Below are positions 3,754 through 19,435 of a DNA stretch of 21,905 nt, one piece after another. This DNA is from a virus: positions 1 through 21,905 of IMG/VR virus record IMGVR_UViG_3300031223_000047; one strand, written 5' to 3'. Position numbers and translations under genes: made by a program. The notes beneath the pieces were generated by a model. That model had not been told where the DNA came from, did no database searches, and worked only from the letters and a program-made list of their open reading frames with translations. Numbering within the stretch: the first letter of the stretch is position 1; each line of letters begins with the position of its first letter.

Positions 3754-5379
3754 ATGTCGATGATCGGAAGGCTGAAACACCTGCTGGCCGAGGCGCTGCC
3801 TCCGACAGTGGGGCCTGAGGGGATGACCCTCCCCAAACCCTCGGGCAAATACATGCGCGGTGGGCGCGGTGTCACCTTCGCGGGCTGGAAACCGGCGCTG
3901 CGGGAAAGCCAGGATGATATTGGCGAGGCCTGGGACGATGCGGCCGCGCGGGTGGGTGACCTCTTGCACAACAGCGGCTGGCTGGCCGGGGCCATGGAGC
4001 AATGCGTCGCCAACACCGTGGGCACGGGGCTGCAGCTGAAGGCGCTGCCAGAGAACGAGACTTTTGGCATGACGCCAGCCGAGGCCTCGGACTGGGCGAA
4101 GACGGTGGAGCGCCGGTTCGAGCTCTGGGCGCGCAGCGCGCAGGAATGCGACATTCAGGGCTTGCGCACTTTTGGCCAGATGCAGGCGGCGGCGTTTCGA
4201 TCCTGGCTGGTCACCGGTGAAATCCTCGCGGAACTGCCCTGGCGCAAACGGGCCTGGAACCGCTACGGCACCAAGGTGCGACTGCTGCCGCCGCAGCGGC
4301 TGTCGCGCAAGACGGAAAGCATGAAGCGGCTGATCAACGGTGTCTATACGGACGCCGATGGCATGCCCGTGGGCTACCGCGCGATCCGCAAGGACCTGTT
4401 CCGGCATGACGTGGAATACGATGTGCGCGCCCGCGACCGGGCAGGTCGACCACGGGTGATCCACATCTTCGAGGGCGCGCCTGGCACACACCGGGGCATC
4501 TCGCCTCTGGTTCCGGCACTGCAGGTGGCGCGGCAGTTTGACCAGTTGGCGGATGCCACGCTGATGGCGGCCATCGTGCAGACGCTGTTTGCGGTGACGA
4601 TCACCTCCGACGAGCCGACGGAACAGGTGTTGCAGGGGCTGCTGACGCCACAAGAACAGGCGCAGATGCTGGCGCAAGGCATATCGCCGATGGAGGCCTA
4701 TATCGAGATGGTCGCAGGATATTACGACGGCAGCACGCTGGATGTGGGGATCAATGGCCGCCTGGCGCATCTGTTTCCGGGTCAGGAGCTTAAGTTTCAC
4801 ACCAGCAACCACCCGTCTTCGGATTATGCCGCCTTCGCCATGCATCTGCTGCGCGAACTCGCGCGCTGTCTCGGGCTGACCTATGAAAGTGCGACGGGCG
4901 ACAATGTGGGGGCGACCTATTCCTCGCTGCAGGCGGCCACGACAGAGATCTTTGCCATCACGAAAGCCCGGCGTCGCAACATCATGGCGCCGTTCTGCCA
5001 GCCGATCTTTGAGGCCTGGCTCGAGGAAGAGATCGAGGCGGGAGCCCTGCCGTTCCCGGGCGGGATTGCCGGGTTCATGGCCAATCGCACCGCTGCATGC
5101 CGCGCGGAATGGCGGGGTGATCCGCGCCCGCAGGCCGATGATCTGAAAAAAGCCAAGGCGCATGAGGTCTGGAAGCGCCTTGGTGTGATGTCGGACGCGA
5201 TGATCTGCACCGATCTCGGGGCCGATGTGGACGATGTTTACCAGCAACTGGCGCAGGAACAGGCGCTGCGGGCCGAATACGGCCTGCCGGAGCCGCAGAT
5301 GATGGGCGCGCAGGGCGGTGGACCGAGTGCCGCTGTCGCAGATGAACAGGACGAAACTAGTGGTGAGGCGGAGACATGA
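3754..5379 (+). CDS. Phage portal protein (lambda gpB family)
   Basis: 541 aa (lambda gpB is 533). It forms the dodecameric ring at the capsid vertex through which DNA enters, and on which terminase and the neck assemble. Family signatures are the N-terminal tip/stem region with NSGWLAGAMEQ (73-83), the HRGISPLVPAL segment (246-256), and the clip/crown region with LGLTYESATGDN followed by TYSS (373-391). The start ATG 3754 lies 5 nt after the terL stop, with AGGT (3743-3746) upstream. Its stop overlaps the next start as ATGA. The last ~30 residues are Gln/Gly-rich and probably disordered. A 525-codon open frame on the opposite strand is a high-GC shadow. Confidence 0.96.
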   Translation: MSMIGRLKHLLAEALPPTVGPEGMTLPKPSGKYMRGGRGVTFAGWKPALRESQDDIGEAWDDAAARVGDLLHNSGWLAGAMEQCVANTVGTGLQLKALPENETFGMTPAEASDWAKTVERRFELWARSAQECDIQGLRTFGQMQAAAFRSWLVTGEILAELPWRKRAWNRYGTKVRLLPPQRLSRKTESMKRLINGVYTDADGMPVGYRAIRKDLFRHDVEYDVRARDRAGRPRVIHIFEGAPGTHRGISPLVPALQVARQFDQLADATLMAAIVQTLFAVTITSDEPTEQVLQGLLTPQEQAQMLAQGISPMEAYIEMVAGYYDGSTLDVGINGRLAHLFPGQELKFHTSNHPSSDYAAFAMHLLRELARCLGLTYESATGDNVGATYSSLQAATTEIFAITKARRRNIMAPFCQPIFEAWLEEEIEAGALPFPGGIAGFMANRTAACRAEWRGDPRPQADDLKKAKAHEVWKRLGVMSDAMICTDLGADVDDVYQQLAQEQALRAEYGLPEPQMMGAQGGGPSAAVADEQDETSGEAET

Positions 5380-5636
5380 CCATCAGCATTGACGATGCCG
5401 ATCCCTGCGCGGCGGCCGCCAGCCTGCGGCAGGTCTATGTCCGGCTTGTCGCAGGTGAAGGGGCCATGGAGGTGCGCTTCCGGGCGGGATCGAACGGGGT
5501 GGAACGCTCGGTGACCTATCACCGGGCGCATCCAGACCGGCTCTTGGCCGTCCTTCGCGGCTTTGAAGAGCAATGTGCCCAGCAACAGGGCCGTGGCCCG
5601 CGGCGGTTTGCGCTTGGAACAGGAGGGGTGCGATGA
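5376..5636 (+). CDS. Head-tail joining protein, gpW-like
   Basis: 86 aa, translationally coupled on both sides (ATGA at 5376-5379 with the portal and again at 5633-5636 with the protease). The pattern matches lambda gpW (68 aa): an N-terminal helix with Ala-rich ASLRQ, a short beta-hairpin (MEVRF ... RSVTY), a second helix (LLAVLRGFEE), and a basic RGPRRF tail reminiscent of gpW's RRGPAGF end. In lambda, gpW plugs the portal and completes the head for tail attachment. Here the gene follows the portal gene, whereas in lambda it lies between terL and the portal. The family call rests on size, pattern and neighbours. Confidence 0.75.
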   Translation: MTISIDDADPCAAAASLRQVYVRLVAGEGAMEVRFRAGSNGVERSVTYHRAHPDRLLAVLRGFEEQCAQQQGRGPRRFALGTGGVR

Positions 5637-6979
5637 CGGAACCGCCCGATGTTGAACACTCTGCGGTGGCGCCGGCGGGGCCGACGCTGGCACAAATTGC
5701 GGGCCGCGTGTTGAACCGGCCGCTGCTGCTGCACCCGGAAAAGGCCGATCTGATCCTGCATGTGCTGCAGGGCCGGATTGGGATCGAGCCTATGAGCCTG
5801 CCGGGGCCCGAGGCCAACCGCTTTGTCGGCAGTTACCGCCGCGACAACGGCAGCGTCGGTTCCATGCGCGTTGCAAACGGTGTTGCCATCCTGCCCATCG
5901 TGGGCAGCCTGGTGAACCGCGGGGCCTGGATCGGGGCCAATTCGGGGCTGGTCTCCTATGAAGGCATCGCCGCGCAGCTGCGCGAGGCGCAAGCCGACCC
6001 GGATGTGCGGGCGATCCTCTTAGATATCGACAGTCCCGGCGGTGAGGCCACGGGCATGTTCGCGACAGCCAACCTCGTTCGCGCTGTGAACCAGGTGAAG
6101 CCGGTTCTGGCCTTCGTCAATGATGTGGCCGCCTCGGCCGCCTATGGCATCGCCAGTGCTGCGCGCGAAATCATCGTCTCGCCCACCTCCATGGTCGGCT
6201 CCATCGGTGTGGTGCTGACCCATCTCGACCGCTCGGGCGAGCTGGAAGATCGCGGCGTGAAGCCGACGCTCATTCATGCCGGGGCGCATAAGGTCGACGG
6301 CAACCCGTTCGGACCGCTGTCGGACGCGGTGCGCGCGGATCTGCAGGCCGAAGTTCTCAAAATATATGATCAATTCATCGGCTTGGTCGCGGAAGGTCGG
6401 ACTGGTCGCATGACTGAGCAGGCGATCCGCGCCACAGAAGCCCGCACCTATCTTGGCGCGGATGCCATTGCTCAAGGTCTCGCCGATCGCATGGCGAGCC
6501 TGGACGAGGTTATCGCCACGCTTTCGCAACCGCCCTCCGTGGCAATTTCCCAGAGAAAGGGAGGACCCATGACCAGAACCATCCAGAACGAGGCGCCCGC
6601 GAGTGACGTCTCGGCCATTAGCCCAGCCGACCTGCAAGCGGCTGTCGATGCCGCCCGCACCGAGGCGCATACCGCCGGTGTCACCGCTGGCAAAGCCGAG
6701 GCCACGTCCCGCATCAAGTCTATCCTGACAGCGCCCGAGGCCGAAGGCCGGGAAGCCCAGGCGCTGGTTCTGGCGCTTGAAACCGAGATGTCGGCTGTGG
6801 ATGCAGCGAAAGTTATGACGGCGTCCCCCAAGGCATTGGTCCCCACGACGATTGCCGACCGGGCCGCACACGAGACTGAACTCGGGGCTGAAACCCCAGC
6901 AGATCAACACAACCGCGCCGAGCGCAGCGTGGCGGGGTGGTCCAAAGCCATCACCCACGCCAATGCGCGCTTTGGCTGA
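5633..6979 (+). CDS. Prohead protease, S49 (SppA/lambda gpC-like), with scaffold at C-terminus
   Basis: 448 aa (lambda gpC is 439). Residues ~75-285 form an S49 (ClpP-fold) peptidase: ILLDIDSPGGEATG oxyanion region (128-141), nucleophile Ser168 in NDVAASAAYG, and general-base Lys220 in AGAHKVDG. The 52-residue Ser-Lys spacing matches what I recall for lambda gpC (S166/K218). It acts inside the prohead, removing scaffold and itself before packaging. The start is ATG 5633, coupled by ATGA to the gpW-like gene and preceded by GGAGGGG; a longer frame from 5573 would overlap that gene with no ribosome site. From residue 313 the sequence becomes Ala/Glu-rich and helical and coincides with the nested scaffold gene. 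It is not a host SppA: no signal peptide, and it sits between portal and capsid genes. Confidence 0.95.
   Translation: MTEPPDVEHSAVAPAGPTLAQIAGRVLNRPLLLHPEKADLILHVLQGRIGIEPMSLPGPEANRFVGSYRRDNGSVGSMRVANGVAILPIVGSLVNRGAWIGANSGLVSYEGIAAQLREAQADPDVRAILLDIDSPGGEATGMFATANLVRAVNQVKPVLAFVNDVAASAAYGIASAAREIIVSPTSMVGSIGVVLTHLDRSGELEDRGVKPTLIHAGAHKVDGNPFGPLSDAVRADLQAEVLKIYDQFIGLVAEGRTGRMTEQAIRATEARTYLGADAIAQGLADRMASLDEVIATLSQPPSVAISQRKGGPMTRTIQNEAPASDVSAISPADLQAAVDAARTEAHTAGVTAGKAEATSRIKSILTAPEAEGREAQALVLALETEMSAVDAAKVMTASPKALVPTTIADRAAHETELGAETPADQHNRAERSVAGWSKAITHANARFG
6558..6565 (+). promoter_or_regulatory. Internal ribosome-binding site for the nested scaffold gene
   Basis: AGGGAGGA lies a few bases upstream of an in-frame ATG (6569) in the middle of the protease gene. 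A near-consensus Shine-Dalgarno is not needed for the protease itself, so its presence here argues for a separate internal start. Confidence 0.72.
6569..6979 (+). CDS. Nested capsid scaffolding protein (Nu3-like), in frame with the protease
   Basis: 136 aa, identical to protease residues 313-448 and made from an internal ATG with its own strong Shine-Dalgarno (6558-6565). Composition is Ala/Glu-rich, with long amphipathic helices (about residues 22-90 of the short form) and no Cys, as expected of an internal scaffold. In lambda the same layout is known: Nu3 (about 130 aa) initiates inside gene C in the same frame, guides gpE shell assembly, and is then degraded by gpC. Length, position and order here match closely. 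The short product itself is inferred from sequence only. Confidence 0.78.
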   Translation: MTRTIQNEAPASDVSAISPADLQAAVDAARTEAHTAGVTAGKAEATSRIKSILTAPEAEGREAQALVLALETEMSAVDAAKVMTASPKALVPTTIADRAAHETELGAETPADQHNRAERSVAGWSKAITHANARFG

Positions 6980-6995: not shown

Positions 6996-7367
6996 ATGAC
7001 TGTTCTCACAGAAGGCCGCCATCCCGGCGAATTCCTGATGACCGAGGCCAATGGCCAGCGCTCGCGGGAAAATATCACCATCGCCAGCGGTGCTGGCATC
7101 ATCGCCCCGGGCACCGTGCTGGGCAAAATCACCGCCAGCGGCAAATATCTGGCCAGCGCTATCGGTGCCACCGATGGCAGCCAGACCGCGGTGGCCATCG
7201 CGCTCTATGGCTGTGATGCCACGGCAAGTGATGTTGCAGTTGCCGGCATCACTCGGGACGCTGAGGTGAACGGCAAGGTCCTGACCTACCATCCCGACCG
7301 GGATCAGCCTGCCGAAAAGGCTGCGGCCCAGGGTGATCTGGCCGCTGTCGGCATTATCGTGCGCTGA
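6996..7367 (+). CDS. Head decoration protein (lambda gpD family)
   Basis: 123 aa (lambda gpD is 110). It trimerises on the outside of the expanded capsid and stabilises it after DNA filling. The family pattern is visible: an extended N-terminal arm with EGRHPGEFL, then a beta-rich body with APGTVLGKIT, repeated short strands, and a C-terminal LAAVGIIVR strand. The start is ATG 6996 behind AGGGAGAAGGA. It sits between protease/scaffold and major capsid genes exactly as D sits between C/Nu3 and E in lambda. One Cys is present (GCDAT). Confidence 0.92.
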   Translation: MTVLTEGRHPGEFLMTEANGQRSRENITIASGAGIIAPGTVLGKITASGKYLASAIGATDGSQTAVAIALYGCDATASDVAVAGITRDAEVNGKVLTYHPDRDQPAEKAAAQGDLAAVGIIVR

Positions 7368-7503: not shown

Positions 7504-8535
7504 ATGTCGATCCTCAATATCTTCAGTCAGGACGCCTTCAGCGTCATGCGCCTCACGGATGCGCTTCGTGAGATCAAATACACCCCGTCGCGCATTGGCC
7601 AGATGGGGCTGTTCCAAACGACCAGCATCGACACGCTTGATATCGCGATCGAGAAGGATAAGGAGCAGAACCGAATGCTGGTCTCGGCCAGCCCGCGTGG
7701 CGGTCCCGGCCAGACCTTCGACAAATCCAAACGCGCCATGCGGATGCTCAAGGTGCCCCACTTCCAGGTGGACGATGCGATCTATGCCGATGAGGTCCAG
7801 CAGGTGCGCGCCTTTGGGCAGGAAGTCGCCGTTGAGCGGTTGCAGCAGAAGATCGCGGACCGTGCGGCGGAAGCCAGCCAGTTCTTCGCGCTGACCGAGG
7901 AATACCACCGCCTGAACATCCTCAAGACCGGCCAGCTTCTGGACGCTGACGGCTCGGTGCTCTTTGACTATTTTACCGAGTTTGGCGAAAACCAGCAGGC
8001 CGTGGTCGACTTTGACCTCGACAACGCCAGTGCCACCGATGGTGCGCTGCGCAAAAAATGCGCCGGTGTCATCCGCCAGATGGCCGGCATTCTCGACGGT
8101 CTGCCCTACACGAGCGTCATCGCGCTGTGTGGCGACGCGTTCTTCGATGATCTGATCGGCCACAAGGAAGTCCGCGAGACCTACAAGGGCTATGCCGACG
8201 CCGCCTCACTGCGAAACGCTTACATCAATTCCGGCAATTCCGGCATCTATGGTGCGTTCGAGTTTGGCGGCATCACCTGGATGAACTACCGCGGTGGTCA
8301 GAATGTCGGCATCGAGACCGACAAGTGCCATCTCGTGCCCATGGGCGTGCCCGGTCTCTTCCGCACGGTCTATGCCCCGGCGGATTACATCGAGACGGTG
8401 AACACGCCGGGCCAGCGGCTCTATGGCAAGCAGTGGGAAATGCAGAACGGCAAGGGTGTGAACCTCGAGTTCCAGATGAACGCCCTGCAATACTGCACCC
8501 GTCCGCGCGTGCTGATCCCTGGCAAGCGCACCTGA
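7504..8535 (+). CDS. Major capsid protein (lambda gpE family)
   Basis: 343 aa (lambda gpE is 341). It is the shell-forming subunit with an HK97-type fold. Family features: the N-terminal arm (FSQDAFSVMRLTDALREI), the FQTTSIDTLDIAIE E-loop region, a long spine helix (about 100-125), and a C-terminal LYGKQWEMQNGKGVNLEFQ stretch with an ALQYCTRPRVL ending, all typical of gpE homologues. The start is ATG 7504 with AAAGGA (7492-7497) 7 nt upstream. There is no N-terminal delta domain, in line with a separate scaffold (nested in the protease gene). Confidence 0.96.
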   Translation: MSILNIFSQDAFSVMRLTDALREIKYTPSRIGQMGLFQTTSIDTLDIAIEKDKEQNRMLVSASPRGGPGQTFDKSKRAMRMLKVPHFQVDDAIYADEVQQVRAFGQEVAVERLQQKIADRAAEASQFFALTEEYHRLNILKTGQLLDADGSVLFDYFTEFGENQQAVVDFDLDNASATDGALRKKCAGVIRQMAGILDGLPYTSVIALCGDAFFDDLIGHKEVRETYKGYADAASLRNAYINSGNSGIYGAFEFGGITWMNYRGGQNVGIETDKCHLVPMGVPGLFRTVYAPADYIETVNTPGQRLYGKQWEMQNGKGVNLEFQMNALQYCTRPRVLIPGKRT

Positions 8536-9779: not shown

Positions 9780-10292
9780 ATGGCGATCCGCGAAATCGTC
9801 GAGCTCGTTGCGCGCGTGACCGATCTGGAGCGCCGTGTCGCAGGCGTCATGCGGCATGGCACGGTGGCGGAGGTCGACCCCGGACGCCAGCGCATCCGGC
9901 TCGATTTTGGACCCACGCATGGCGGACAGGGCCGGTTCCTGTCACCCTGGCTGCCTTATGCCCAGTTCTCGGGTGCGTTGCGTGTGCACACGCCGCCCAC
10001 GGTTGGGCAGCAATTCACGGTGATGTCGCCTACGGGGGATTTCCAACAGGCGGTGGCGGTGCCGCTGACCCATCACGCGGGCAATCCGAGCCCCTCAACC
10101 GCGGGGGATGAGAATGTCATCACCTATGGCAATGCCCGGATGACGCTCGCGGATAATCTGGTGCATGTCGATGTGGGCGGGTCGATGCTGAAGTTGACAG
10201 CGGCAGAGATCACGCTTTCGACCAATGGCAGCAGCATCGTGCTGAACGCAGACGGCGTCACCATAAACGGTGCGCGGATTGATTTGAACTGA
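9780..10292 (+). CDS. V: Baseplate assembly/spike protein (P2 gpV family)
   Basis: 170 aa. It forms the trimeric central spike that pierces the outer membrane when the sheath contracts. An N-terminal helix with ELVARVTDLERRV (7-19) leads into an OB-fold (GTVAEVDPGRQRIRLDFG, then a VGQQFTVMSPTGDFQQAV segment). The C-terminus is a row of short strands (MTLADNLVHV, SMLKLTAAEITLS, SSIVLNADGVTING) typical of the triple-stranded beta-helix. P2 gpV ends with an HxH iron-binding tip; this protein ends at ARIDLN without it, which fits the separate PAAR tip gene that follows. Start ATG 9780, with AAGGGT (about 9767-9772) upstream. Confidence 0.92.
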   Translation: MAIREIVELVARVTDLERRVAGVMRHGTVAEVDPGRQRIRLDFGPTHGGQGRFLSPWLPYAQFSGALRVHTPPTVGQQFTVMSPTGDFQQAVAVPLTHHAGNPSPSTAGDENVITYGNARMTLADNLVHVDVGGSMLKLTAAEITLSTNGSSIVLNADGVTINGARIDLN

Positions 10293-10309
10293 TCGAAAAG
10301 GGGCACCTC

Positions 10310-10603
10310 ATGCCAGCTGTCACCCGCCGCGGCGACGCCTGCACCGGGCATGGTTGCTGGCCGCCCCGGCCGAGCACGGGGGGCAGTCCGGATGTCTTTG
10401 CCAACAGGATCGCGGTCCACCGCCAGAGCGATGGATGGGATGCGCATACCTGTCCAGCGATCCCACAGACCCATGCCAGCGTGCTGGCCTCTGGATCCAC
10501 CACGGTCTTTGCCAATGGCCGCCAGCTAGGGCGGATTGGCGATCCGGTGGCTTGTGGATCCTCAGTCGCTGCCGGGTCACCAGACGTTTTTGCCGGGGAA
10601 TAA
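10310..10603 (+). CDS. PAAR-motif spike-tip protein
   Basis: 97 aa, Gly/Ala/Ser-rich, with the PAAR pattern: GDACTGHGC near the N-terminus, two copies of GSPDVFA (about 25-31 and 89-95), and HASVLASGSTTVFANG in the middle. His and Cys residues are available for a metal ion at the cone tip. PAAR proteins sharpen the trimeric spike of contractile tails and type VI systems. Here it sits directly after the gpV gene, whose own metal tip is missing, so it should cap that spike. ATG 10310 follows AAAAGGGG at good spacing. Type VI secretion is excluded by the surrounding phage genes. Confidence 0.88.
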   Translation: MPAVTRRGDACTGHGCWPPRPSTGGSPDVFANRIAVHRQSDGWDAHTCPAIPQTHASVLASGSTTVFANGRQLGRIGDPVACGSSVAAGSPDVFAGE

Positions 10604-10614
10604 GGCTGCTGAAG

Positions 10615-10641
10615 TTCAAGGTTGGAAACGCCAACCTTGAA
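10615..10641 (+). other. Perfect 11-bp hairpin between PAAR and the following gene
   Basis: TTCAAGGTTGG (10615-10625) and CCAACCTTGAA (10631-10641) are exact inverted repeats around a 5-nt AAACG loop. Neither strand shows a U-tract after it, so it is not a standard intrinsic terminator. It lies 12 bases past the PAAR stop and 46 bases before the next start. Confidence 0.75.
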
Positions 10642-10687
10642 ATCGCCACTGCGCTGCAAGGCGCGATATGCAGGAAAGGACATCGGA

Positions 10688-10966
10688 ATGAACCGATACG
10701 CGATTACCGAGAAAGCTGGCCGCTTCATTGCGGGCCAGACCAACACTGGCGTGGGCACCGTGCTGACGCTGACCGACAAGCAGGCCGAGCATGAGCTTCG
10801 GCTTGGCACGCTGCGACGGCTCGATGTGCCGCCGGTGAAGGCCGAACCAGAGACCGATGAAGCGCTGGCAGAAACGCCCGCGGCCAAGGTAAGCAAGTCC
10901 AAGAAACCATCGCGCATCAAACCTGATCTTGGTGAGGATCATGCGACTGCTGATGATGCGGGCTGA
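10688..10966 (+). CDS. Small phage protein of unknown function (92 aa)
   Basis: Start ATG 10688, with AAAGGA (10675-10680) 7 nt upstream; the longer frame from TTG 10622 would read through the hairpin and has no ribosome site. Residues 1-50 are beta-like, with a Tyr-x-Ile-Thr opening, GTVLTLTDKQAEHEL and a LGTLRRLDVPP end. Residues 55-92 are charged, Ala/Lys/Asp-rich and probably disordered. I do not recognise a family. It lies inside the baseplate cluster, between PAAR and gpW. The first half loosely resembles the 56-aa protein at 15882 in length and layout, which may mean a shared small fold. Confidence 0.68.
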   Translation: MNRYAITEKAGRFIAGQTNTGVGTVLTLTDKQAEHELRLGTLRRLDVPPVKAEPETDEALAETPAAKVSKSKKPSRIKPDLGEDHATADDAG

Positions 10967-10969
10967 CCG

Positions 10970-11395
10970 GTGGCCACGCGCAGCATAAACCCGTCCGTTG
11001 GCCTGAACGCCGTAACGGGCGGTGTGATTGAGGGCTGGCCACACGTGGCCCAGAGCCTGCAGGACATCTTTACCACGCGGTTTGGCGCCCGGATCATGCG
11101 TGAATGGTATGGATCGTTTGTTCCGAACCTGCTGGGGCGCACCATCACGCCCAATGAGGTGACGCCGTGGTTTGCCGCGGTGACCTCTGCGATCGAGCAA
11201 TTCGAGCCGCGCTACCGCGTGACCCGCATTCAGATCGTTGAGGTGACACGCGACGGTCGGCTGCATCTCTTCCTCGAGGGCGAGTACCGGCCACGGGCCA
11301 CCTATGGCGACTTCACGGTTGAAGGCGCGCGCCGCATCAATGCCTATGCCAACCCGGACGGGGTGCTGATCGAGGAACGCGAGGCCCAAGCATGA
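10970..11395 (+). CDS. W: Baseplate wedge protein (P2 gpW / T4 gp25 family)
   Basis: 141 aa (P2 gpW is about 115). It has the gp25-like layout, with a helix carrying HVAQSLQDIFTT, the conserved RFGARIMREWYGS turn, a long helix with VTSAIEQFEPRYRV, and strands IQIVEV and HLFLEGEY. The protein links the baseplate hub to sheath polymerisation and has lysozyme-unrelated gp25 architecture. Start GTG 10970 is 3 nt after the previous stop, with only a weak ribosome site, so expression may depend on translation from upstream. Its end overlaps gpJ by ATGA. Confidence 0.92.
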   Translation: MATRSINPSVGLNAVTGGVIEGWPHVAQSLQDIFTTRFGARIMREWYGSFVPNLLGRTITPNEVTPWFAAVTSAIEQFEPRYRVTRIQIVEVTRDGRLHLFLEGEYRPRATYGDFTVEGARRINAYANPDGVLIEEREAQA

Positions 11396-12279
11396 GCCGT
11401 TTCACCGCCATCAACCTTTCCGGTCTGACGCCGCCGGATGTGATCGAGACGCTGGACTATGAGACAATCGTCACCGAGATGCGCGATGATCTGGTCGCGC
11501 GGTTTCCGGCGATCACCGGCGTCATTGATCTCGAAAGCGAGCCCGCGCGCAAGCTGATCGAGGCCTTCGCCTATCGCGAGATGCTCCTGCGTGCGCGGAT
11601 CAATGATGCGGCCCGTTCGGCTTTGCTGGCCTCGTCTTACGGCAGCAACCTCGATCATCTGGCCGCATTGTTCGCCACGCAGCGGATGCAGGTCGAGGAT
11701 GCTACCGGCGTGTTGGTGGTGGAAGACGATGATCGCCTGCGCCGTCGCGTGCAGCTGGCCCCAGAGGCGTTCTCCGTGGCCGGGCCTGAAGGGGCGTATG
11801 TCTATCATGCGCTCACCGCCGCGCCTTGGGCGCGCGATGCCACGGCGATCATGACGACGCCCGGCCGGGTGCGTGTCACCATGCTGCGGGCGGGACCTGA
11901 TCCGGTTCCCAGCCTTACGGAACGCGAAACCGTCCGCCTGTCGCTCATCGACAATGACGTGCGCCCGCTGACGGACATGGTCGAAGTCCTGGGCCCCCAG
12001 GTTTACCGGGTCTCGGTCGAGGCAAAGCTGACCCTCTATCCGGGCCCTGACGGCAACGTGGTGCATCAACGCGCGCTCACCGCGCTGACGGAATGGATGG
12101 CAACGAACCGGATGCTGGGGATGAACCTGCGGCGTTCTGCGATCTTTTCGAAGTTGCATGTTGAAGGTGTGCATTCGGTGGATCTGGTTACGCCTGCTGC
12201 GGACATCGTGCTCGGCCCGACCGAGGTCTATGCCCTCGACGCCATGACCATCACTGTCGCGGCCCTGCGCGATGAATAG
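11392..12279 (+). CDS. J: Baseplate assembly protein (P2 gpJ family)
   Basis: 295 aa (P2 gpJ is 302). The signatures are an N-terminal GLTPPDVIETLDYETI segment, LIEAFAYREMLLRARINDAARS (about 52-73), the YGSNLDHLAALF segment, the GPEGAYVYHALTA turn typical of baseplate J proteins, and VRVTMLR followed by a C-terminal domain with ALTEWMATNRMLGMNLRRS. It forms the wedge dimer that rearranges during sheath contraction. It is coupled to gpW by ATGA, and gpI follows at 11 nt. No anomalies seen. Confidence 0.95.
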   Translation: MSRFTAINLSGLTPPDVIETLDYETIVTEMRDDLVARFPAITGVIDLESEPARKLIEAFAYREMLLRARINDAARSALLASSYGSNLDHLAALFATQRMQVEDATGVLVVEDDDRLRRRVQLAPEAFSVAGPEGAYVYHALTAAPWARDATAIMTTPGRVRVTMLRAGPDPVPSLTERETVRLSLIDNDVRPLTDMVEVLGPQVYRVSVEAKLTLYPGPDGNVVHQRALTALTEWMATNRMLGMNLRRSAIFSKLHVEGVHSVDLVTPAADIVLGPTEVYALDAMTITVAALRDE

Positions 12280-12290
12280 GATCCCCGTCC

Positions 12291-13550
12291 ATGACCCGTG
12301 AGACCCTGCTGCCGGACAACCGGACGGCCTTCGAAGAGGCGGCCGATCTCACTGGCGCACGCATTGCCGATCTTCCCATCGGGTTGCGTCCGTTGGTGCA
12401 ACCGCATCAGATCCCCAGCAGCCACCTGCCTTGGCTCGCTTGGAGCCTCTCGGTCGATCTGTGGGACAAGGACTGGCCGGAGGAGACAAAACGCGCGCGC
12501 ACCGCGCGATCACTGCCGTTTCACGCGATCAAGGGCACACAGACCGCCATCGCGGAAGCGCTCGCCGTGATGGGGGCGCAAGCGCGGCGCTTTATCGTGC
12601 CGCCTGCCAAGACGTTCATGACACAGGCGCTCAGGGATGAGGAACGCGCCGCCTATCTCGACCGCTTTGCCCAGCTTCGGGTCTATCCGTTCATCGCCCG
12701 GGGTGTTTCCGGTCGGAACACCCGGTATCTTTCGGCGCCTGACGGCCCGGGCACGGCCTTTGCCGGGCCAAACAATCCGGTCTCAGTGCAGGGCACGCGC
12801 TATGTGCGCACCGCCAAGCTGCATGATCGTGGCCGCGAAACGACCCTGACGCTGCGCACGGTCACGCCAGAACGCGTTGGGGAGTTCAACACGATTGCCT
12901 ATGACGAGGTGGTCCTAGCCCCCAAACCTACGGCGGCCATCCACCTGAACGTCGCGCCCAAAGCCCGCGCGTTTCTGATCGATGATATCGGTGTGCGCCA
13001 ACGCATCGTGCGCCTCCCGCGGGCCACGACCTACAGCTACCGGCTGGGCCGCGAGCAATACACAACCGTGCTGCCAAAAGGCGAGCTGATCGATGTGCGC
13101 CCACAGCAGGTTGCTGAGACACATCCGCGCCGGTTTGGAGCGATTTTCCCCGGTGTGCCGTGCCAGCATGTGGCAGGCACGTTCCTGCCCGAGACCATCG
13201 CTTGGCAGTATCTCTATGATCGCTGGCACATCCACGATCCGGCCCGCGTGCTCGACGAGCGCAAGCGGTCCACCCATCTGGGCTACACCCGGCTCGGGAT
13301 GCCGCCATACCACGCCGAGGTGCTGACCCGCATCACGGGGCGTCGGTATCCGCGTACGGTGGGCCGTTTCGTCAATGGCTATGTGGTGGCCGCCAGTACC
13401 AAGCCGGTCGCGGATGCGCGCGAGGCGGTGATGGTCGCCAAATCGCTGCGGGACAAGGTCCTGATCAACACCAAGACCTGGCGCGTGCCGCGACCGGGCG
13501 ACCGCCGCACAGTGGGCGATATCACGCTCGGCACTTTGACAGAGGTTTGA
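12291..13550 (+). CDS. I: Tail protein gpI family with long C-terminal extension
   Basis: 419 aa, far longer than P2 gpI (176). The N-terminal ~130 residues match the gpI pattern: LLPDNRTAFEEAADL, HLPWLAWSLSVDLWD, FHAIKGTQTAIAEALA. That region is the wedge part that contacts gpJ. The remaining ~280 residues (from about 140) look beta-rich, with repeated Arg and Thr strands such as RETTLTLRTVTPE, and could replace part of the fibre-attachment function. A comparable extension is common in alphaproteobacterial phages as far as I recall, but the fold of this part is unknown to me. ATG 12291 follows AGGA (12278-12281). Confidence 0.9.
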   Translation: MTRETLLPDNRTAFEEAADLTGARIADLPIGLRPLVQPHQIPSSHLPWLAWSLSVDLWDKDWPEETKRARTARSLPFHAIKGTQTAIAEALAVMGAQARRFIVPPAKTFMTQALRDEERAAYLDRFAQLRVYPFIARGVSGRNTRYLSAPDGPGTAFAGPNNPVSVQGTRYVRTAKLHDRGRETTLTLRTVTPERVGEFNTIAYDEVVLAPKPTAAIHLNVAPKARAFLIDDIGVRQRIVRLPRATTYSYRLGREQYTTVLPKGELIDVRPQQVAETHPRRFGAIFPGVPCQHVAGTFLPETIAWQYLYDRWHIHDPARVLDERKRSTHLGYTRLGMPPYHAEVLTRITGRRYPRTVGRFVNGYVVAASTKPVADAREAVMVAKSLRDKVLINTKTWRVPRPGDRRTVGDITLGTLTEV

Positions 13551-13553
13551 GAC

Positions 13554-15860
13554 ATGGAACGCACCGTCATCTACCGCGATCGGCAGGAACTGCAATCCGC
13601 CGATCTCAACAACATGCAGGACTTTGCCCGCACCTCGATGGATCACATCGTCCGCGATGCGGTTGAAAGCGGCAAGGCCTATTCCGGCTTTTCCGCCACC
13701 AAGACCGCCGCGACCGAGATCACACTGTCGGCAGGCAGGCTTTACGCCGGTGGAGCGGTCTATGCGCGCGGTGAGGACATCATCGTTGATCTCTTCAACG
13801 TGCTGCCGCTGGTGACCCGCAAGCGCGTGGCGATTGTCAGCTTCGGCCAGGAGGTCGAGACGGATATCCAGCCGCGCGACTTTCTGATCGACGCGCAGAC
13901 CGGCACCACTGAGCCGCAATCAGTCGCGATGGAGAGCCTTCGCCGCGCGGAAATCTCAACCGTGGCGGGTACCGAAGGGCCGGACCCCAGCTATCCCGCC
14001 ACGGATGCCAATGTGACGGTCATCGCCTATGTGCTGCTCGACACCACCGGCGTTGTGGCGATCGAGCAGTGGCAGGCGACACAGCTGCCAAACCTGCGCA
14101 ATGTCGCAAACCGCACGATTGCGCTGGAGCGCTGGCGCGGCCAGATCAGCGGCCAGGTCGATACGCTGCGTACGGATCTGTCGGCGCTGGCAGACCGGCT
14201 GGCGGGCTATGCCACCAAGGCCGAGATTGTGGAATTGACGGAGCAGCTCGATGAACTGCGCACCGAGGTCTATGCGCCGGGCGCTTATATCTACTACGGC
14301 ACCAACCATTTCCTGACGGCTGATGGCTCAAATGTCGATCACCCCGATTTTGACGCGGTGGTCGAGGAAGGCATCCGGTTTCCACGGGCGGGGTCCGAGA
14401 CCTCGGAACTGGCACTGCTGAACCCCAACAACGTCTATATCGCCAATACCAGCGGGTTCGTGCTGCCCAAATACGCCCATGGCATCCGGCTTGATCTGAC
14501 GGGCTATGCCTCCGAGACGCGGCTGGCGCAGTACACCTTCGAGACCACGGATATTCGCCAGCTGACCCGAGCGCGCACGCGGCGGCGCTATGGCAATTCC
14601 ATGGTGGTCTGCACCAACAGCCGCTGGTGGCGTCAAGGCACCTACGATCTGGCGGGCAATATCTTCCGCCGGGATGGAGAGACCTGGGAGGTCACCAACG
14701 GCCTGCCGGACCGCATGCCCAATGGCGCGCGCGTGCCCAACGGCAATGTGCACTGGATCCGGGTGCGGCGATTTTGGATCGACACCTATGAGGAGCAATA
14801 CTGGGACCGGGTCACGACCACGGCCACGATCAACGGCCAACAAGTGGCGCAGACCTTCCTGAACTCGCAAGATGGCTGGCTGAGCCAGGTTGGGCTTTAC
14901 TTCTCACGCAAGGCCGCTGCGGGGGATGTCACACTGCTGGTGACCGAGACCGCCTTTGGCATGCCGGACCTGTCCCGCGTGATCTCGCGCACAACGCTGC
15001 CAGTGGCGGATATTCAGGTGGGGGCGATCTCGACGGAGGTGGGCTTGCCGTCGCTGGTGGAGAGCAAACTGCCGATCACGCCAACCTTCCTGACGGCCGG
15101 ACGGCGCTACGCGATCGTGCTGGTCACCACCGGTGATCATTATGTCGCCATGACCAATACCGACAACGGGGTCGTGCAGGGCACGTTCTTTGTCTCGACC
15201 GATGGCGCGTTCTTCGCGGGCAACCTCGTCGATGACATGAAAATGCGGCTCTACTTTGCGCGGTTCGAGCGCACACGGCTCTCGGTCGAGCTGACAGCGC
15301 TGCAGCTGGCAGGCGGCATTCTCGATCTTGATGTGCTGCACGAAGGCGTGACGCCGCCTGCCTGCCGCACGGATATCGAGGTGCAGGTGAACGGGGCCTG
15401 GGTGGCGCTTGATGGTGATACCAGCGGTCCGGACCTCTCGGGTCTGCCGGGCATCCTGCCGCTGCGCATGACGCTCACGGGCACCACGGACCTGATGCCG
15501 GGCTTTGGGCTTGCGGGCTCACAGACGGTCGCAACGCGGCCAAAGACTGCGTTCACCTGGGTGTCGGATGAGCGCACGCTCGGCTCGGCCACAACAAGCG
15601 TCAAGGTGGTCACCGACCTGCAGCATTTTGAAGAGGTGAACCACGATTGCACCGTGACGCTTATGACCGGTGCCGCGCTGGACCGGGTGGAGTCGGCCGA
15701 TGTGGTTGAGGATGTGGTGCTGGCCGATGGCACGGTACGGCGGACCTCGATCTTCAACGTAGCCTCGGTCAGCACCTACGCGGTCAAGATCATTGGCTCG
15801 ACGGTGAGCGCGGCAGTGCCGTTTCTGGTCAGTGAGCTGATCGAATACGCCCAGACCTGA
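13554..15860 (+). CDS. Large tail fibre / baseplate-attached structural protein (DUF4815-like N-terminus)
   Basis: 768 aa. The N-terminus (YRDRQELQSADLNNMQDFAR, 7-26, then a GFSATKTAATEITLSAGRLY region) resembles the baseplate-binding head of DUF4815-type tail proteins. Residues ~187-240 are a heptad-rich coiled coil (ALERWRG ... LSALADRL ... IVELTEQLDEL), suggesting a trimeric stalk. After that the protein is long and beta-rich, with several lectin- or jelly-roll-like strand sets (about 250-768). It may be a fibre shaft or a receptor-facing baseplate component. It follows gpI at 3 nt, where P2 has gpH (fibre). The receptor-binding role is inferred from position. Confidence 0.78.
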   Translation: MERTVIYRDRQELQSADLNNMQDFARTSMDHIVRDAVESGKAYSGFSATKTAATEITLSAGRLYAGGAVYARGEDIIVDLFNVLPLVTRKRVAIVSFGQEVETDIQPRDFLIDAQTGTTEPQSVAMESLRRAEISTVAGTEGPDPSYPATDANVTVIAYVLLDTTGVVAIEQWQATQLPNLRNVANRTIALERWRGQISGQVDTLRTDLSALADRLAGYATKAEIVELTEQLDELRTEVYAPGAYIYYGTNHFLTADGSNVDHPDFDAVVEEGIRFPRAGSETSELALLNPNNVYIANTSGFVLPKYAHGIRLDLTGYASETRLAQYTFETTDIRQLTRARTRRRYGNSMVVCTNSRWWRQGTYDLAGNIFRRDGETWEVTNGLPDRMPNGARVPNGNVHWIRVRRFWIDTYEEQYWDRVTTTATINGQQVAQTFLNSQDGWLSQVGLYFSRKAAAGDVTLLVTETAFGMPDLSRVISRTTLPVADIQVGAISTEVGLPSLVESKLPITPTFLTAGRRYAIVLVTTGDHYVAMTNTDNGVVQGTFFVSTDGAFFAGNLVDDMKMRLYFARFERTRLSVELTALQLAGGILDLDVLHEGVTPPACRTDIEVQVNGAWVALDGDTSGPDLSGLPGILPLRMTLTGTTDLMPGFGLAGSQTVATRPKTAFTWVSDERTLGSATTSVKVVTDLQHFEEVNHDCTVTLMTGAALDRVESADVVEDVVLADGTVRRTSIFNVASVSTYAVKIIGSTVSAAVPFLVSELIEYAQT

Positions 15861-15881
15861 TCCGATTGAGGAGACAGCCAA

Positions 15882-16052
15882 ATGGCATCCAAACTAACCC
15901 ACTACCGGGTGACGGTGAACCGTCCCCTTGAATTTGCCGGGGCCCGGTTCCGGCCGGGCGCGCGCTATACGGTGACAGCTGCCATCTTCGACGGCCTGCA
16001 AGCAGACCATCCCGAGGCGATCGCCACATCCGAGCCGCTGAAGAAAGGGTGA
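15882..16052 (+). CDS. Small phage protein (56 aa), function unknown
   Basis: ATG 15882 is preceded by a very good GAGGAG (15868-15873) at 8 nt, and the frame ends at 16050-16052, 4 nt before the next gene. Codon use is GC3-rich. The product is basic, with two short strand pairs (YRVTVNRPLEFAG, ARYTVTAAIFDGL) and an ADHPEAIAT helix. I recognise no family. It is wedged between two fibre genes, so a role in fibre assembly or attachment is plausible. Compare the 92-aa protein at 10688. Confidence 0.75.
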   Translation: MASKLTHYRVTVNRPLEFAGARFRPGARYTVTAAIFDGLQADHPEAIATSEPLKKG

Positions 16053-16056
16053 CGCC

Positions 16057-16863
16057 ATGCTGAGGTTTGAAGATCTGCGGGTGCGGGACAATCAGGACCT
16101 TGATCGGGACTTCTTCAATCGCCGCTACCGCTTGATTGCCGAAAGCCTCGGCGATCTCGATGCCCAGCTTGCGCGCATCCGCGGTGCCACCGACAATCTG
16201 GTGACCCTGGGGCTGTCGCGGGTAAATGAGGTATTGGGTCCTGCGCTCGCCACGGCAACAGCGGCGGCCGAGAACGGGTTTCTGGTGGCCACGTCCTCAA
16301 CGCCGCTCACTGTGTCGGTGGGTCTGCAGACCACCTTTGAGATCGATAACACACCCGCACGAGCGCTCTTTGCGCCGACACCCTATGTCGTGCTGACGCG
16401 CGATGTCGACGACAGCCTGAACGACTGGGCGGTGTTCCGGGTCGACGGCTACAGCCGCGCCAATGGCGGGCTCGCGGGCGAAGTGGTGGCCGTCAACGGA
16501 GATATTGGTGCGGCCGTCCATGGCGACTGGGTGATTTCTGCAAGCGCGGGCCTTGCAGCTTCCGTGATTGAAACGGCCGCCGCAGTTTCAAGTGCGCTAG
16601 CCCTGGCCCAGCAGGCGGCACAGGATGCGGCGGCGGCGGCGGATATTGCCGAAAGCGTTCTGGCCAATGGCCCGGTGTCGTCCGTGAATGGCCAGGCGGG
16701 GGAAGTGGCGCTCGGGATCGGGGATATTCCCAACCTCACGGCGCAGCTCGCCAGCAAAGCGGCCAGCACTCATGGCCATACGATTGCGCAGGTCTCCAAC
16801 CTGCAATCAACGCTGACGGCGCTGCAAGACCGGATCGATCTGGTTGATGGCGGGACGTATTGA
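16057..16863 (+). CDS. Tail fibre protein
   Basis: 268 aa. The N-terminal ~60 residues are charged and helical (DLRVRDNQDLDRDFFNRRY) and probably bind the baseplate or the preceding fibre. A beta-rich middle follows (about 75-170). Residues 178-205 are an Ala-rich heptad segment ending in DAAAAAD. The C-terminus carries VSSVNGQAGEVALGIGDIP and LASKAASTHGHTIAQVSNL, repeats widely seen in phage fibre shafts. It should form trimers that contact the host surface. ATG 16057 follows AAAGGGTGA. No typical tail-fibre assembly chaperone gene follows, only the 74-aa unknown. Confidence 0.8.
   Translation: MLRFEDLRVRDNQDLDRDFFNRRYRLIAESLGDLDAQLARIRGATDNLVTLGLSRVNEVLGPALATATAAAENGFLVATSSTPLTVSVGLQTTFEIDNTPARALFAPTPYVVLTRDVDDSLNDWAVFRVDGYSRANGGLAGEVVAVNGDIGAAVHGDWVISASAGLAASVIETAAAVSSALALAQQAAQDAAAAADIAESVLANGPVSSVNGQAGEVALGIGDIPNLTAQLASKAASTHGHTIAQVSNLQSTLTALQDRIDLVDGGTY
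16627..16642 (+). repeat. GCG trinucleotide run in the fibre gene
   Basis: Five GCG codons in a row encode an Ala5 stretch in the fibre's heptad region. Slippage would change the shaft by whole residues without a frameshift. Confidence 0.85.
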
Positions 16864-16877
16864 CGGAGGAGGTGCAA

Positions 16878-17102
16878 ATGCGATCCACCTTGACAGAGAT
16901 CAGCACCAAGCTGGGCATCACCGATGTGCGCGATGTGCAGGTGAGTGAGATTGTCGATGACGGGGCCGGTGGTTTCATCCGTGCAATCCGGGTCTTCGGG
17001 GAACCCTCCGCATCCGCAGGCCCGGCGCTGATCCTCGAGGTGCAGATCCAGTCCGACACAAAGACCGACCTCGATATCACGACACCGACGCTGTCGTTCT
17101 GA
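16878..17102 (+). CDS. Small protein between fibre and sheath genes (74 aa), function unknown
   Basis: ATG 16878 is preceded by an exceptionally strong GGAGGAGG (16865-16872) at 5 nt, and an in-frame TTG at 16860 that only overlaps the fibre stop is rejected as the start. The protein starts with a short helix (LTEISTKLGI) and is then beta-strand-rich (VRDVQVSEIV, IRAIRVFG, ALILEVQIQS, LDITTPTL), with no Cys. No family is recognised. It sits where many P2-like phages have a tail-fibre assembly chaperone, but the size and strand pattern do not match that family. The RBS suggests high expression, so it may be a virion component. Confidence 0.7.
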   Translation: MRSTLTEISTKLGITDVRDVQVSEIVDDGAGGFIRAIRVFGEPSASAGPALILEVQIQSDTKTDLDITTPTLSF

Positions 17103-17142
17103 ACCTCGGCCAACCGCCGATCCCAAGCATCCAATATACCTT

Positions 17143-17165
17143 CACGCGCGCCTGACGGTCGCGTG
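17143..17165 (+). other. Small hairpin in the sheath leader
   Basis: CACGCG (17143-17148) pairs with CGCGTG (17160-17165) around an 11-nt loop with two further possible G-C pairs. The intergenic stretch 17103-17194 otherwise shows nothing but the sheath ribosome site. No U-run follows. Confidence 0.3.
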
Positions 17166-17194
17166 GGTGTTCATCTATTCAAGGAGACCTTCTC

Positions 17195-18442
17195 ATGTCT
17201 GACCCGACCTTCGGGATTTCGATCACGCGGATCGATACTGAGCCGCGCCCGCCCGTCTGGAGCGATATGTCCGTTGTGGGCCTGATCGGCACGGCGCCCG
17301 ATGCGGATGCATCGGTGTTCCCGGCCGATACGCCAGTGTTCCTCTATTCTGACGATGCCACCAAGCTGACAGCGCTCGGGGCAACTGGCACGCTGCGCGA
17401 CGCGGTCACACTGATCAACGCGCAGCTTGGTGAGTTCCAGGTGGCAGCCAAGGTCGTGGTTGTGCGCGTTGAAGACGGTGCCGATGCTGACGCGACCATC
17501 GCCAATATCGTCGGCGACGGCGTCGCGACCGGCCTGCAGGCGTTCATCGCCGCGGGTCCAGAGCTTGGTATCATCCCACGCCTGATTTGCGCTCCGGGCT
17601 ATACCAGTCAACGCGGTGTCGGTGAGGCCAACCCGGTCTGTGCAGCGCTGCCCGCGATCTGCGAAAAACTTCTGGCGCATGCGGTTGTCGATGGCCCCGC
17701 CACCACTGAGCAGGACGCCATCGATTGGCGAGAGACGATTGCCTCGCAGCGCCTGATCCCGGTCGACCCTGCAGTGAAAGTGTTTGCCGGTGGCGTTTCT
17801 GTCGTGCAGCCGCTTTCGCCGGCCATCATTGGCATCGGCGTGCGCCGCGACCACGAAAAGCAGGGCCGACCGTTCCACAGCTGGGCCAACCAGCCGGTGC
17901 AGGGCATTGTTGGTCCCTCACGTCCCATCAACTTCTCGCTCACCGATGGCGCGACCGAAGGCCAGCGCTTGCTGTCGGCCAATGTCGGCGTGCTCCTGCG
18001 CGGTGAAATGGGCGTGGAGAGCGCCATCGGTCAGGGTGGTTTCATCTTCGTGGGCACTGACAACGCGGGCGAGGACGACCTCTGGCGGTTTTATAACGTC
18101 ACCCGGGGGCGCGACTTCATCCACCTGATGCTGCTTCGGACCCTGCGGTTCTATCTCGGGCGGTTCAACATCACGGGCCAGACCATCCAGGCGATCCTGA
18201 ACACGATGGAAACCGGCCTGCGCAATCTCAAGGCCGATGGCGATATCCTTGGCTTCGAGATGAAGTTCACGCGCGATCAGAACACGCCTGAGGAACTGCG
18301 TCAGGGCCGCTTCACGGTCAGCTTTGCTGCCGAGGAAGCACCGGTGCTGCGCTATCTCGGCATTCAGTCCGCGCGGTACCGCCCGGCGCTTGATGCGCTG
18401 CTTGATGATCTGCTGGCGCAGGTCGGCACGATCACCGGCTAA
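17195..18442 (+). CDS. FI: Contractile tail sheath protein (P2 FI family)
   Basis: 415 aa (P2 FI is 396). It forms the contractile outer tube whose shortening drives the spike. Visible are the N-terminal DPTFGISITRIDTEPRPP arm, a domain with VVGLIGTAPDA and VFLYSDDATKL, IPRLICAPGYTS in the middle, then RDFIHLMLLRTLRFYLGR and the C-terminal TVSFAAEEAPVLRYLGIQSARY, which resembles the conserved FI C-terminal domain that carries the extended arms linking neighbouring subunits. The start ATG 17195 has AAGGAG (17180-17185) at 9 nt. It is followed by tube, chaperone and tape measure genes, as in P2. Confidence 0.95.
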   Translation: MSDPTFGISITRIDTEPRPPVWSDMSVVGLIGTAPDADASVFPADTPVFLYSDDATKLTALGATGTLRDAVTLINAQLGEFQVAAKVVVVRVEDGADADATIANIVGDGVATGLQAFIAAGPELGIIPRLICAPGYTSQRGVGEANPVCAALPAICEKLLAHAVVDGPATTEQDAIDWRETIASQRLIPVDPAVKVFAGGVSVVQPLSPAIIGIGVRRDHEKQGRPFHSWANQPVQGIVGPSRPINFSLTDGATEGQRLLSANVGVLLRGEMGVESAIGQGGFIFVGTDNAGEDDLWRFYNVTRGRDFIHLMLLRTLRFYLGRFNITGQTIQAILNTMETGLRNLKADGDILGFEMKFTRDQNTPEELRQGRFTVSFAAEEAPVLRYLGIQSARYRPALDALLDDLLAQVGTITG

Positions 18443-18467
18443 TTACTGAACAAAAGGAGACGCTCTG

Positions 18468-19004
18468 ATGAGCAACATTTACGTCATGGAGGCCGCAAAC
18501 CTTTTTTGCGGCGACGAGGACCCGTCGGCCTCCAAGCACCTGACGCTGACCGAACTGCAATTGCCGAACCTGCAGGAGATGTTTCAGGACCATCATCCCG
18601 GTGGGTCGCGCGTTCAGGTCGAAGTTGCGCTTGGCATCGAAAAGCTTGAGGCCAACTTCAAGCTAGCGGGCTGGGACCCACAGGTTCTGGCGCAGTTTGG
18701 TCTAGGTGCCCGGGCGCGCAAGAAGTTCACCGCCTACGGCTCGGTGCGAGACAAGCGCAACGGCGTGGCCATTGAGGCCAAGGCGGTTTTTGAGGGTCGT
18801 CTTGGCACGGCCAATGCAGAGTCGTTCAAGCGCGGCGATCTGCAGAGTTTCGATTACGCGATTGGCGAAATCATGCACTATGAGCTCTATTTCGAGGGCA
18901 AGGAAGTCTACTACTGGGACTTTTTCACAACCGACTGGCGTGTCAACGGCGTGTCGGAAAACGCAGATGAGCGCGGCATCCTGCGCATCCCCAATGGTTT
19001 CTGA
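18468..19004 (+). CDS. FII: Tail tube protein (P2 FII family)
   Basis: 178 aa (P2 FII is 172). It polymerises into the inner tube through which DNA passes. The pattern matches: YVMEAANLFCGDEDP N-terminus, KHLTLTELQLPNLQEM, HHPGGSRVQVEVALGIEKLEA, KFTAYGSVRDKRNG, and a C-terminal YELYFEGKEVYYWDFFT. ATG 18468 follows AAGGAG (18454-18459) at 8 nt. Its stop lies within the GAGGTGAT ribosome site of the next gene. Confidence 0.94.
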   Translation: MSNIYVMEAANLFCGDEDPSASKHLTLTELQLPNLQEMFQDHHPGGSRVQVEVALGIEKLEANFKLAGWDPQVLAQFGLGARARKKFTAYGSVRDKRNGVAIEAKAVFEGRLGTANAESFKRGDLQSFDYAIGEIMHYELYFEGKEVYYWDFFTTDWRVNGVSENADERGILRIPNGF

Positions 19005-19012
19005 GGTGATCC

Positions 19013-19333
19013 ATGTCTGACGCAGTAAAACAAAAAACCGTTTCCCTGTCCGTGCCGGTGACCTTTGAGGGCCGGGAAATCACCGAGATCCGCATTGCCA
19101 AGCCCAAGGTCAAGGACCTCAAGCGGATGAATGCGGCACTGGACGGCATCACCGATCGTCTGGATCAGGGCATTGTCATGGCTTCGGCACTGACGGGATA
19201 CCCGATCGAGATGATCGAGGATCTGGACACTGATGACTTCACCGCGCTGTCGGAGGTGATTGCGGATTTTTTCCCCAAGGGCACGGCTTCGCCTCCTGGC
19301 GATCGGTCGTTGCCGAAACTGCCCACTGGCTGA
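19013..19333 (+). CDS. E: Tail assembly chaperone gpE (unshifted product)
   Basis: 106 aa in frame 0. The first ~85 residues match the gpE pattern (TVSLSVPVTFEGREI, IAKPKVKDLKRMNA, and MIEDLDTDDFTAL). Beyond the slippery site (Phe86-Phe87) the frame-0 tail (about 88-106) is Pro/Gly/Ser-rich and looks like read-out sequence after a frameshift signal. In P2 the short and shifted forms chaperone the tape measure and help determine tail length. ATG 19013 follows GAGGTGAT. Confidence 0.9.
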   Translation: MSDAVKQKTVSLSVPVTFEGREITEIRIAKPKVKDLKRMNAALDGITDRLDQGIVMASALTGYPIEMIEDLDTDDFTALSEVIADFFPKGTASPPGDRSLPKLPTG

Positions 19334-19431
19334 ACACGCCGCTCACGGCTTTTGAAGAGATGGAGTGGGCCGAGGTGGTGCTGTGGCACGCGGAGGCCCG
19401 ACGTATGGCCGTTGCCAAGAGGATGAGGTGA
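19013..19431 (+). CDS. gpE+E' tail assembly chaperone by -1 frameshift (139 aa)
   Basis: Frame 0 is read to TTC 19271-19273, then the ribosome slips back one base and continues from 19273 to a TGA at 19429-19431, adding 52 residues. The added part reads as a real protein: HGFASWRSVVAETAHWL, then FEEMEWAEVVLWHAEARRMA, the acidic-Trp-helix pattern of P2 E' extensions. It has no obvious start of its own, consistent with expression only by frameshift. The fusion ends 4 nt before the tape-measure start, as expected for P2-like gene order. The frameshift itself is known for P2; in this phage it is inferred. Confidence 0.88.
19267..19273 (+). promoter_or_regulatory. Programmed -1 frameshift site T TTT TTC
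   Basis: The heptamer falls exactly in X XXY YYZ register: codons GAT TTT TTC, so both the P- and A-site Phe tRNAs can re-pair after a one-base slip. P2's gpE uses a very similar T-rich heptamer. Two C-rich codons follow, and TCGCC/GGCGA (19289-19302, TCCT loop) forms a short hairpin about 15 nt downstream, which may be the stimulator but is further away than the usual 5-9 nt. Confidence 0.85.
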
Positions 19432-19435
19432 CCAG

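Follow-up and report, generated by a model that had tools for sequence, protein, structure and literature searches.

The head-protease gene of this virus appears to be one gene for two capsid-assembly proteins with a common stop: a 448-aa protease with a scaffold-like tail, and a 136-aa scaffold that would be started from an internal Shine-Dalgarno (SD) sequence and ATG (6559-6571). To this reading, based on sequence comparison, we give a probability of about 0.92; very probably the scaffold would be made from a second start inside the head-protease gene, as in phage lambda. The window, i.e. the whole stretch of DNA analysed here, is a 21,905-base virus record; it is a fragment, and our search for other scaffold genes covers this stretch only. 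The head genes and the elements of the proposed nested gene are listed in Table 1.

Table 1. Head genes of the window and elements of the proposed nested gene
Feature	Position	Strand	Evidence
Terminase small and large subunits	from 1288, 1688		
Portal, lambda family	3754..5379	+	Pfam PF05136, E 5e-85
W-like head-tail adaptor, overlapping protease start	5376..5636	+	phrog_75 head-tail adaptor Ad1, E 1.3e-5
S49-family head maturation protease with C-terminal scaffold region, 448 aa, lambda gpC-like	5633..6979	+	Pfam PF01343, E 4.4e-33; phrog_53 head maturation protease, E 2.1e-117; 37% identity to HK629 (lambda-type) gpC over 397 columns
Ser168 codon	6134..6136	+	aligned with lambda-type Ser166 (pairwise); invariant in 39-sequence alignment
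Lys220 codon	6290..6292	+	aligned with lambda-type Lys218 (pairwise); invariant in 39-sequence alignment
Codons 294-312, strongest synonymous constraint of the protease gene in the window's clade, upstream of internal ATG	6512..6568	+	51 sequences; lowest of 394 eight-codon windows
Internal Shine-Dalgarno GGGAGGA	6559..6565	+	sequence; duplex energy -11.3; conserved
Candidate nested in-frame scaffold gene, Nu3-like, 136 aa	6569..6979	+	phrog_8399 head scaffolding protein, E 1.8e-6; internal ATG in place in 116/124 family ORFs
Head decoration protein D	6996..7367	+	Pfam PF02924, E 5.8e-38
Major capsid protein E	7504..8535	+	Pfam PF03864, E 1.5e-87

The earlier note, made from the sequence alone, had reported a near-consensus SD and ATG at codon 313 of the head-protease gene, and this observation was confirmed: the ATG (6569-6571) is codon 313 counted from the ATG at 5633, is in frame, and follows GGGAGGA (sequence at this codon, GGGAGGACCCATGACC). 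The spacing from GGAGG to the ATG, 4 nt, is slightly short; the anti-SD duplex energy, -11.3 kcal/mol, is the best among the 10 in-frame ATGs of the protease gene, the gene's own start having -10.8 and the next best, at codon 142, -9.3 kcal/mol. The nested ORF would encode a protein of ~14.0 kDa; its stop, TGA at 6977-6979, is that of the protease and is only 16 nt from gene D.

The ATG had also been claimed to lie just where the peptidase domain ends and an Ala/Glu-rich helical region starts. In agreement with this, the Pfam PF01343 match ends at residue 299, and the region that follows is Ala-rich (24% A, 9% E). In an AlphaFold2 model of the protease (mean pLDDT 77, pTM 0.54) the protease domain was confident, the linker 308-327, which includes Met313, had pLDDT below 50, and residues 331 to 447 formed helices only; as modelled, the linker that holds the internal start is disordered and the region after it is all-helical. 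A search of solved structures with the protease returned SppA-type proteases only, over about residues 82-299, and the nested product had no match to solved structures up to E 1. The Ser168 and Lys220 residues (lambda-type Ser166 and Lys218) are, we presume, the catalytic residues of the head protease. With a disordered linker in a protein that is itself a protease, one could speculate that self-cleavage near the linker, rather than internal initiation, frees the scaffold from the full-length protein; this would leave the conserved ATG and the nucleotide conservation of the SD codons (see below) unexplained, and we consider it very improbable.

The likeness to lambda C/Nu3 in position and length, also proposed in the earlier note, is on sequence evidence more exact than that note could tell, because the starts coincide in pairwise alignment: G-G-P-M-T of the window aligns with G-G-R-M-T of the lambda-type protein, window codon 313 with lambda-type codon 309. 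Both systems have an S49 protease with Ser and Lys at the same positions, an in-frame internal ATG after a GGAGG-type SD, a stop common to both products (the shorter one having 136 aa in the window and 131 aa in lambda) and a neighbourhood of W/portal, protease, D and E. They differ in that identity is 37% over the alignable part, that the portal precedes the W-like gene in the window, and that the tail genes of the window are of contractile type (sheath, baseplate). The Nu3 profile, too, covers only a part of the window product: the match to phrog_8399 (head scaffolding protein) spans only residues 7-90 of 136, the last 46 residues being unaligned, whereas the 131-aa Nu3 product of HK629 is matched over 1-131 of a PHROG scaffold model 131 positions long.

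How the start is kept among relatives was assessed in protease scans that gave 80 viral-contig loci (the best 80 of 235) and 77 genome-contig loci; with the window's own locus these made 158 loci, with 156 ORFs having a stop, 129 of them distinct and 124 of the latter >300 aa. An intact site, defined as an ATG with SD score -3.3 or better (a cut-off chosen after the values had been seen), no more than 12 codons from the aligned position and with at least 100 codons remaining, was present in 116 of the 124 distinct ORFs; the start was taken to be the best-scoring candidate no farther than 12 codons from the aligned column, a procedure that favours the site. The linker peptide around the internal start is highly variable among relatives, and the SD is held in differing codon phases, encoding differing residues (e.g. 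in loci L001, L127 and L064). In a 39-sequence alignment, restricted to sequences with an intact site, Met313 was the sole invariant residue after Gly282. The SD-like stretch falls in the disordered linker, precisely where one domain gives way to the other, a location that would also suit a ribosome pause allowing the protease domain to fold first, with no internal initiation; a pause, however, does not require an ATG spaced for initiation, and nearly all ORFs have one despite the variable linker, and loci with a split gene (see below) begin the scaffold half as a gene of its own. We regard pausing as a quite unlikely substitute for internal initiation.

A second test treated all 40-codon stretches alike. 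It used 134 sequences, including 16 added phage proteases, reduced to 36 representatives with <60% identity; rows that were broken, split, short or cellular, 11 in all (L094, L105, L110, L121, L144, L146, L147, L152, L153, L157 and L158), were left out before counting. Of the 36 representatives, 34 had an ATG with SD of -5 or lower within the 40 codons that follow the S49 domain; in the same stretch the two remaining frames gave 4 and 0. Elsewhere in the gene, too, some in-frame ATGs are preceded by SD-like stretches (on average in 8.0 of 36 per 40-codon stretch, in 16 for the best non-overlapping stretch; the -9.3 of codon 142 is one instance), as one would expect if a Met codon just happened to follow a purine-rich stretch. 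The difference between frames and the conservation, with the lowest synonymous variation of the whole gene at this very place, contradict such a coincidence, which seems to us barely credible. The two misses were locus L107, with no ATG there, and Vibrio phage K290, with an ATG at codon 291 and SD of -4.2; locus L164 has an ATG at codon 299 of its stored part with SD score -6.0.

Loss of the SD or ATG in close homologues, named beforehand as evidence against a nested gene, was seen in none. In the window's clade (51 distinct sequences with at least 77% amino acid identity, the rearranged L094 being left out) the ATG is present in all 51 sequences; wherever the two SD codons encode Gly they are GGA (50/50 and 49/49 sequences), the remaining 1 and 2 sequences having another residue, while elsewhere in the protease gene of the clade GGA makes up 98 of 1801 Gly codons (5.4%). 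Among 44 representatives the SD was stronger than with synonymous recoding of the same peptides (-6.61 vs -4.13, Wilcoxon 2e-8; individually p<0.05 in 15/44), with the start picked here, too, in the way that favours the site.

About 50 nt before the internal ATG (6512-6568) are nearly without synonymous change in the 51 relatives, which is more than the SD alone requires. The lowest synonymous windows coincide with the site in three groups: the window's clade (51 sequences), a beta/gamma group (8) and a Mesorhizobium group (9); in a second Rhodobacterales group (20) they start 22-32 codons before the ATG, and few columns could be scored at the SD itself. The extended constraint is uneven between groups. 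RNA structure in 6512-6568 gained no support from folding, either against shuffles or against synonymous recoding: the window region folded no better than shuffles (z -0.20), and for 38 representatives SD accessibility was 0.51 both in the native sequences and after synonymous recoding (p 0.86), i.e. there was no special accessibility around the start, the folding energy tending toward weaker structure (p 0.055). A hairpin hiding the SD was also considered, as codons 300-302 (CCGCCCTCC) seem complementary to it and small hairpins appear in many folds; it was rejected as a general mechanism. The upstream element had one exact and one 3-mismatch match elsewhere in the window, with 4.1 expected, and thus gave no signal there. 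We put forward tentatively, and as a rather doubtful proposition when taken whole, that the dual-product gene is ancestral and near-obligate in phages pairing an S49 head protease with an E-type capsid protein, mostly unmarked in non-lambdoid annotations, and that the start in the window's clade has in addition a cis element, ~50 nt long and lying upstream of the SD, by which the ratio of scaffold to protease is tuned.

The eight of 124 ORFs without an intact site were (i) a cellular SppA-like protease, L157, so classed by length and sequence; (ii) the split gene of L147; and (iii) six phage loci, L094, L095, L105, L107, L110 and L121. Capsid E was found by an improved search in 111 of 124 loci, namely 110 with the site and the split L147; four of these loci (L103, L067, L071 and L113) have Pfam capsid E genes missed by the first E search. 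For five of the six phage loci that lack the site, >1500 nt of downstream sequence was available and yielded no E; for L121 only 900 nt was available. In a single locus, L065, the site is present and no E was found. With the split L147 left out, 110 phage loci had 1500 nt or more of downstream sequence; of these, 104 had both site and E, 1 had the site without E, 5 had neither and 0 had E without the site (Fisher test 4.9e-8, with related loci taken as independent). The loss in L107, counted as such in this test, is doubtful and may not be a true one because an in-frame GTG with SD-like score -8.8 stands at the aligned place.

In L107, L110, L105 and L095 the protease ORF is open, and neither capsid E nor decoration protein D was seen in the 2.5-2.9 kb downstream; the next ORF after the protease in L107 and L110 is tape-measure-like, as read by eye from the translation. 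These four may be decaying prophages or tail-only elements that retain the S49 protease. Where capsid genes are absent, loss of the signal could serve as a marker of head-module decay.

Three loci carry the scaffold half, or what is probably its counterpart, as an ORF of its own. In L146 the protease ORF ends at 297 aa and a 170-aa ORF with AAGGAG...ATG starts 37 nt later; in L144 the protease itself is broken and a 171-aa ORF follows; in L147 a 310-aa protease is followed by a 167-aa ORF. The separate scaffold ORFs have their own SD in L144 and L146. Each of the two has hits to the Nu3 scaffold family and to the C-terminal portion of the family of head proteases (phrog_8399 4.7e-13 and phrog_53 1.5e-12 in L144; 0.0059 and 8.9e-7 in L146). 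The 167-aa ORF of L147 matched neither of the two families; it is probably a separate scaffold half, an assignment made by position only. A further rearrangement was noticed by eye in L153 (2740-4115, Yanghanlia caeni), where the protease end overlaps a scaffold-like ORF seemingly running into capsid-E-like sequence; this is apparently a deletion fusion.

The earlier note had also named a separate scaffold gene elsewhere in the genome as evidence against a nested one. Within the 21,905-nt fragment, no scaffold-family match was found among the other window ORFs scanned against PHROGs (24 window proteins including the protease and the nested product), and the reading of a scaffold gene nested in frame in the S49 prohead protease gene gained support, with translation of the short product predicted from the sequence. 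One could argue that the short product, though made, serves chiefly to regulate or anchor the protease, instead of being the bulk scaffold; several divergent nested products lack recognisable Nu3 similarity, and a C-Nu3 interaction is among those listed for lambda in PMC3224144. As the nested product of the window matches a scaffold family and no other scaffold candidate appeared among the ORFs scanned, we hold a mainly regulatory or anchoring role to be improbable.

In the dual-product reading, initiation at 5633 would yield the 448-aa protease with its C-terminal scaffold-like tail in few molecules, as in lambda, and initiation at the internal SD/ATG would yield the tail alone, the 136-aa scaffold, presumably in excess over the protease. 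By analogy with lambda C/Nu3, the scaffold would join portal, protease and capsid protein E into the prohead, the tail on the protease would bring the enzyme into the prohead as a minor core member, and the scaffold would finally be degraded by the protease, ahead of packaging. For lambda, C and Nu3 are described as both essential by CRISPRi (PMC10695390), and Nu3 as interacting with itself, C and E (PMC3224144).

The arrangement itself is already in print for lambda, Mu and KS10, and the window is a further nested scaffold of the lambda C/Nu3 type. The overlap of the lambda C and Nu3 genes was described by Shaw and Murialdo 1980, as cited in a passage of PMC8508860. A passage of PMC4378225 places the scaffolding protein start of Mu and P. 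aeruginosa Mu-like phages in frame inside the protease gene, an arrangement like that of the window by description, with PaMx73 differing in that its proposed scaffold start is a Val codon (177). The portal, D and E of the window match lambda families; we liken Mu to the window by description only. The same holds for gp28/gp29 of Burkholderia phage KS10, a nested protease/scaffold arrangement in PMC2628397, which are BcepMu/Mu-like proteins. We found no survey of this start across S49 proteases in the open-licence literature.

What is notable is the near-universality of the site in this sample together with its poor annotation. Among 18 phage records picked for diversity from lists of 60 of 1016, the S49 domain is closely followed by an in-frame ATG whose SD reaches -5 or better in 17 (including Aeromonas C4), the remaining one, K290, having -4.2; a nested CDS was annotated in 0 of the 16 non-lambdoid records examined. 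Two proteins very probably come from what gene callers give as a single gene in these phages, and therefore the scaffold seems 'missing' from many genomes. A simple rule follows from the comparison: seek an SD and ATG in the linker just after the S49 domain. The nested products of momo, barba, TAC1, WO and K405 had no scaffold-family match; among distant nested products, those of L172 and L175 had no family hits and those of L173, L174 and L176 hit only families of other or unknown function. The scaffold function suggested for those distant phages rests on position, since their nested products match no scaffold family.

Two lambdoid records (L159, 2197-2802; L160, 2194-2799) annotate Nu3 from codon 239, with 201 aa. 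The lambda-type codon 309, at which the SD and ATG are conserved throughout the family, is preceded by AGGAGG and has SD of -10.8, vs -6.4 at the annotated codon 239; to judge by these signals, the comparison supports the short 131-aa Nu3 start over the annotated 201-aa start. The record of phage 434 carries a note on the 'real Nu3 start'.

Profile scans of the window placed baseplate, sheath, head-closure and tape-measure genes downstream of capsid E, and over 9780-21904 the lambda-type head module is seen joined to contractile-tail genes (baseplate, sheath, PAAR, tape measure). Amid the tail genes, 13554-15860 encodes a 768-aa protein, with function not assigned, that matches phrog_17470 near end to end (E 3.2e-176). 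The host of the virus is probably a member of Rhodobacteraceae, because the nearest named relative in the genome collection is a Tateyamaria pelophila contig with 92% protease identity.
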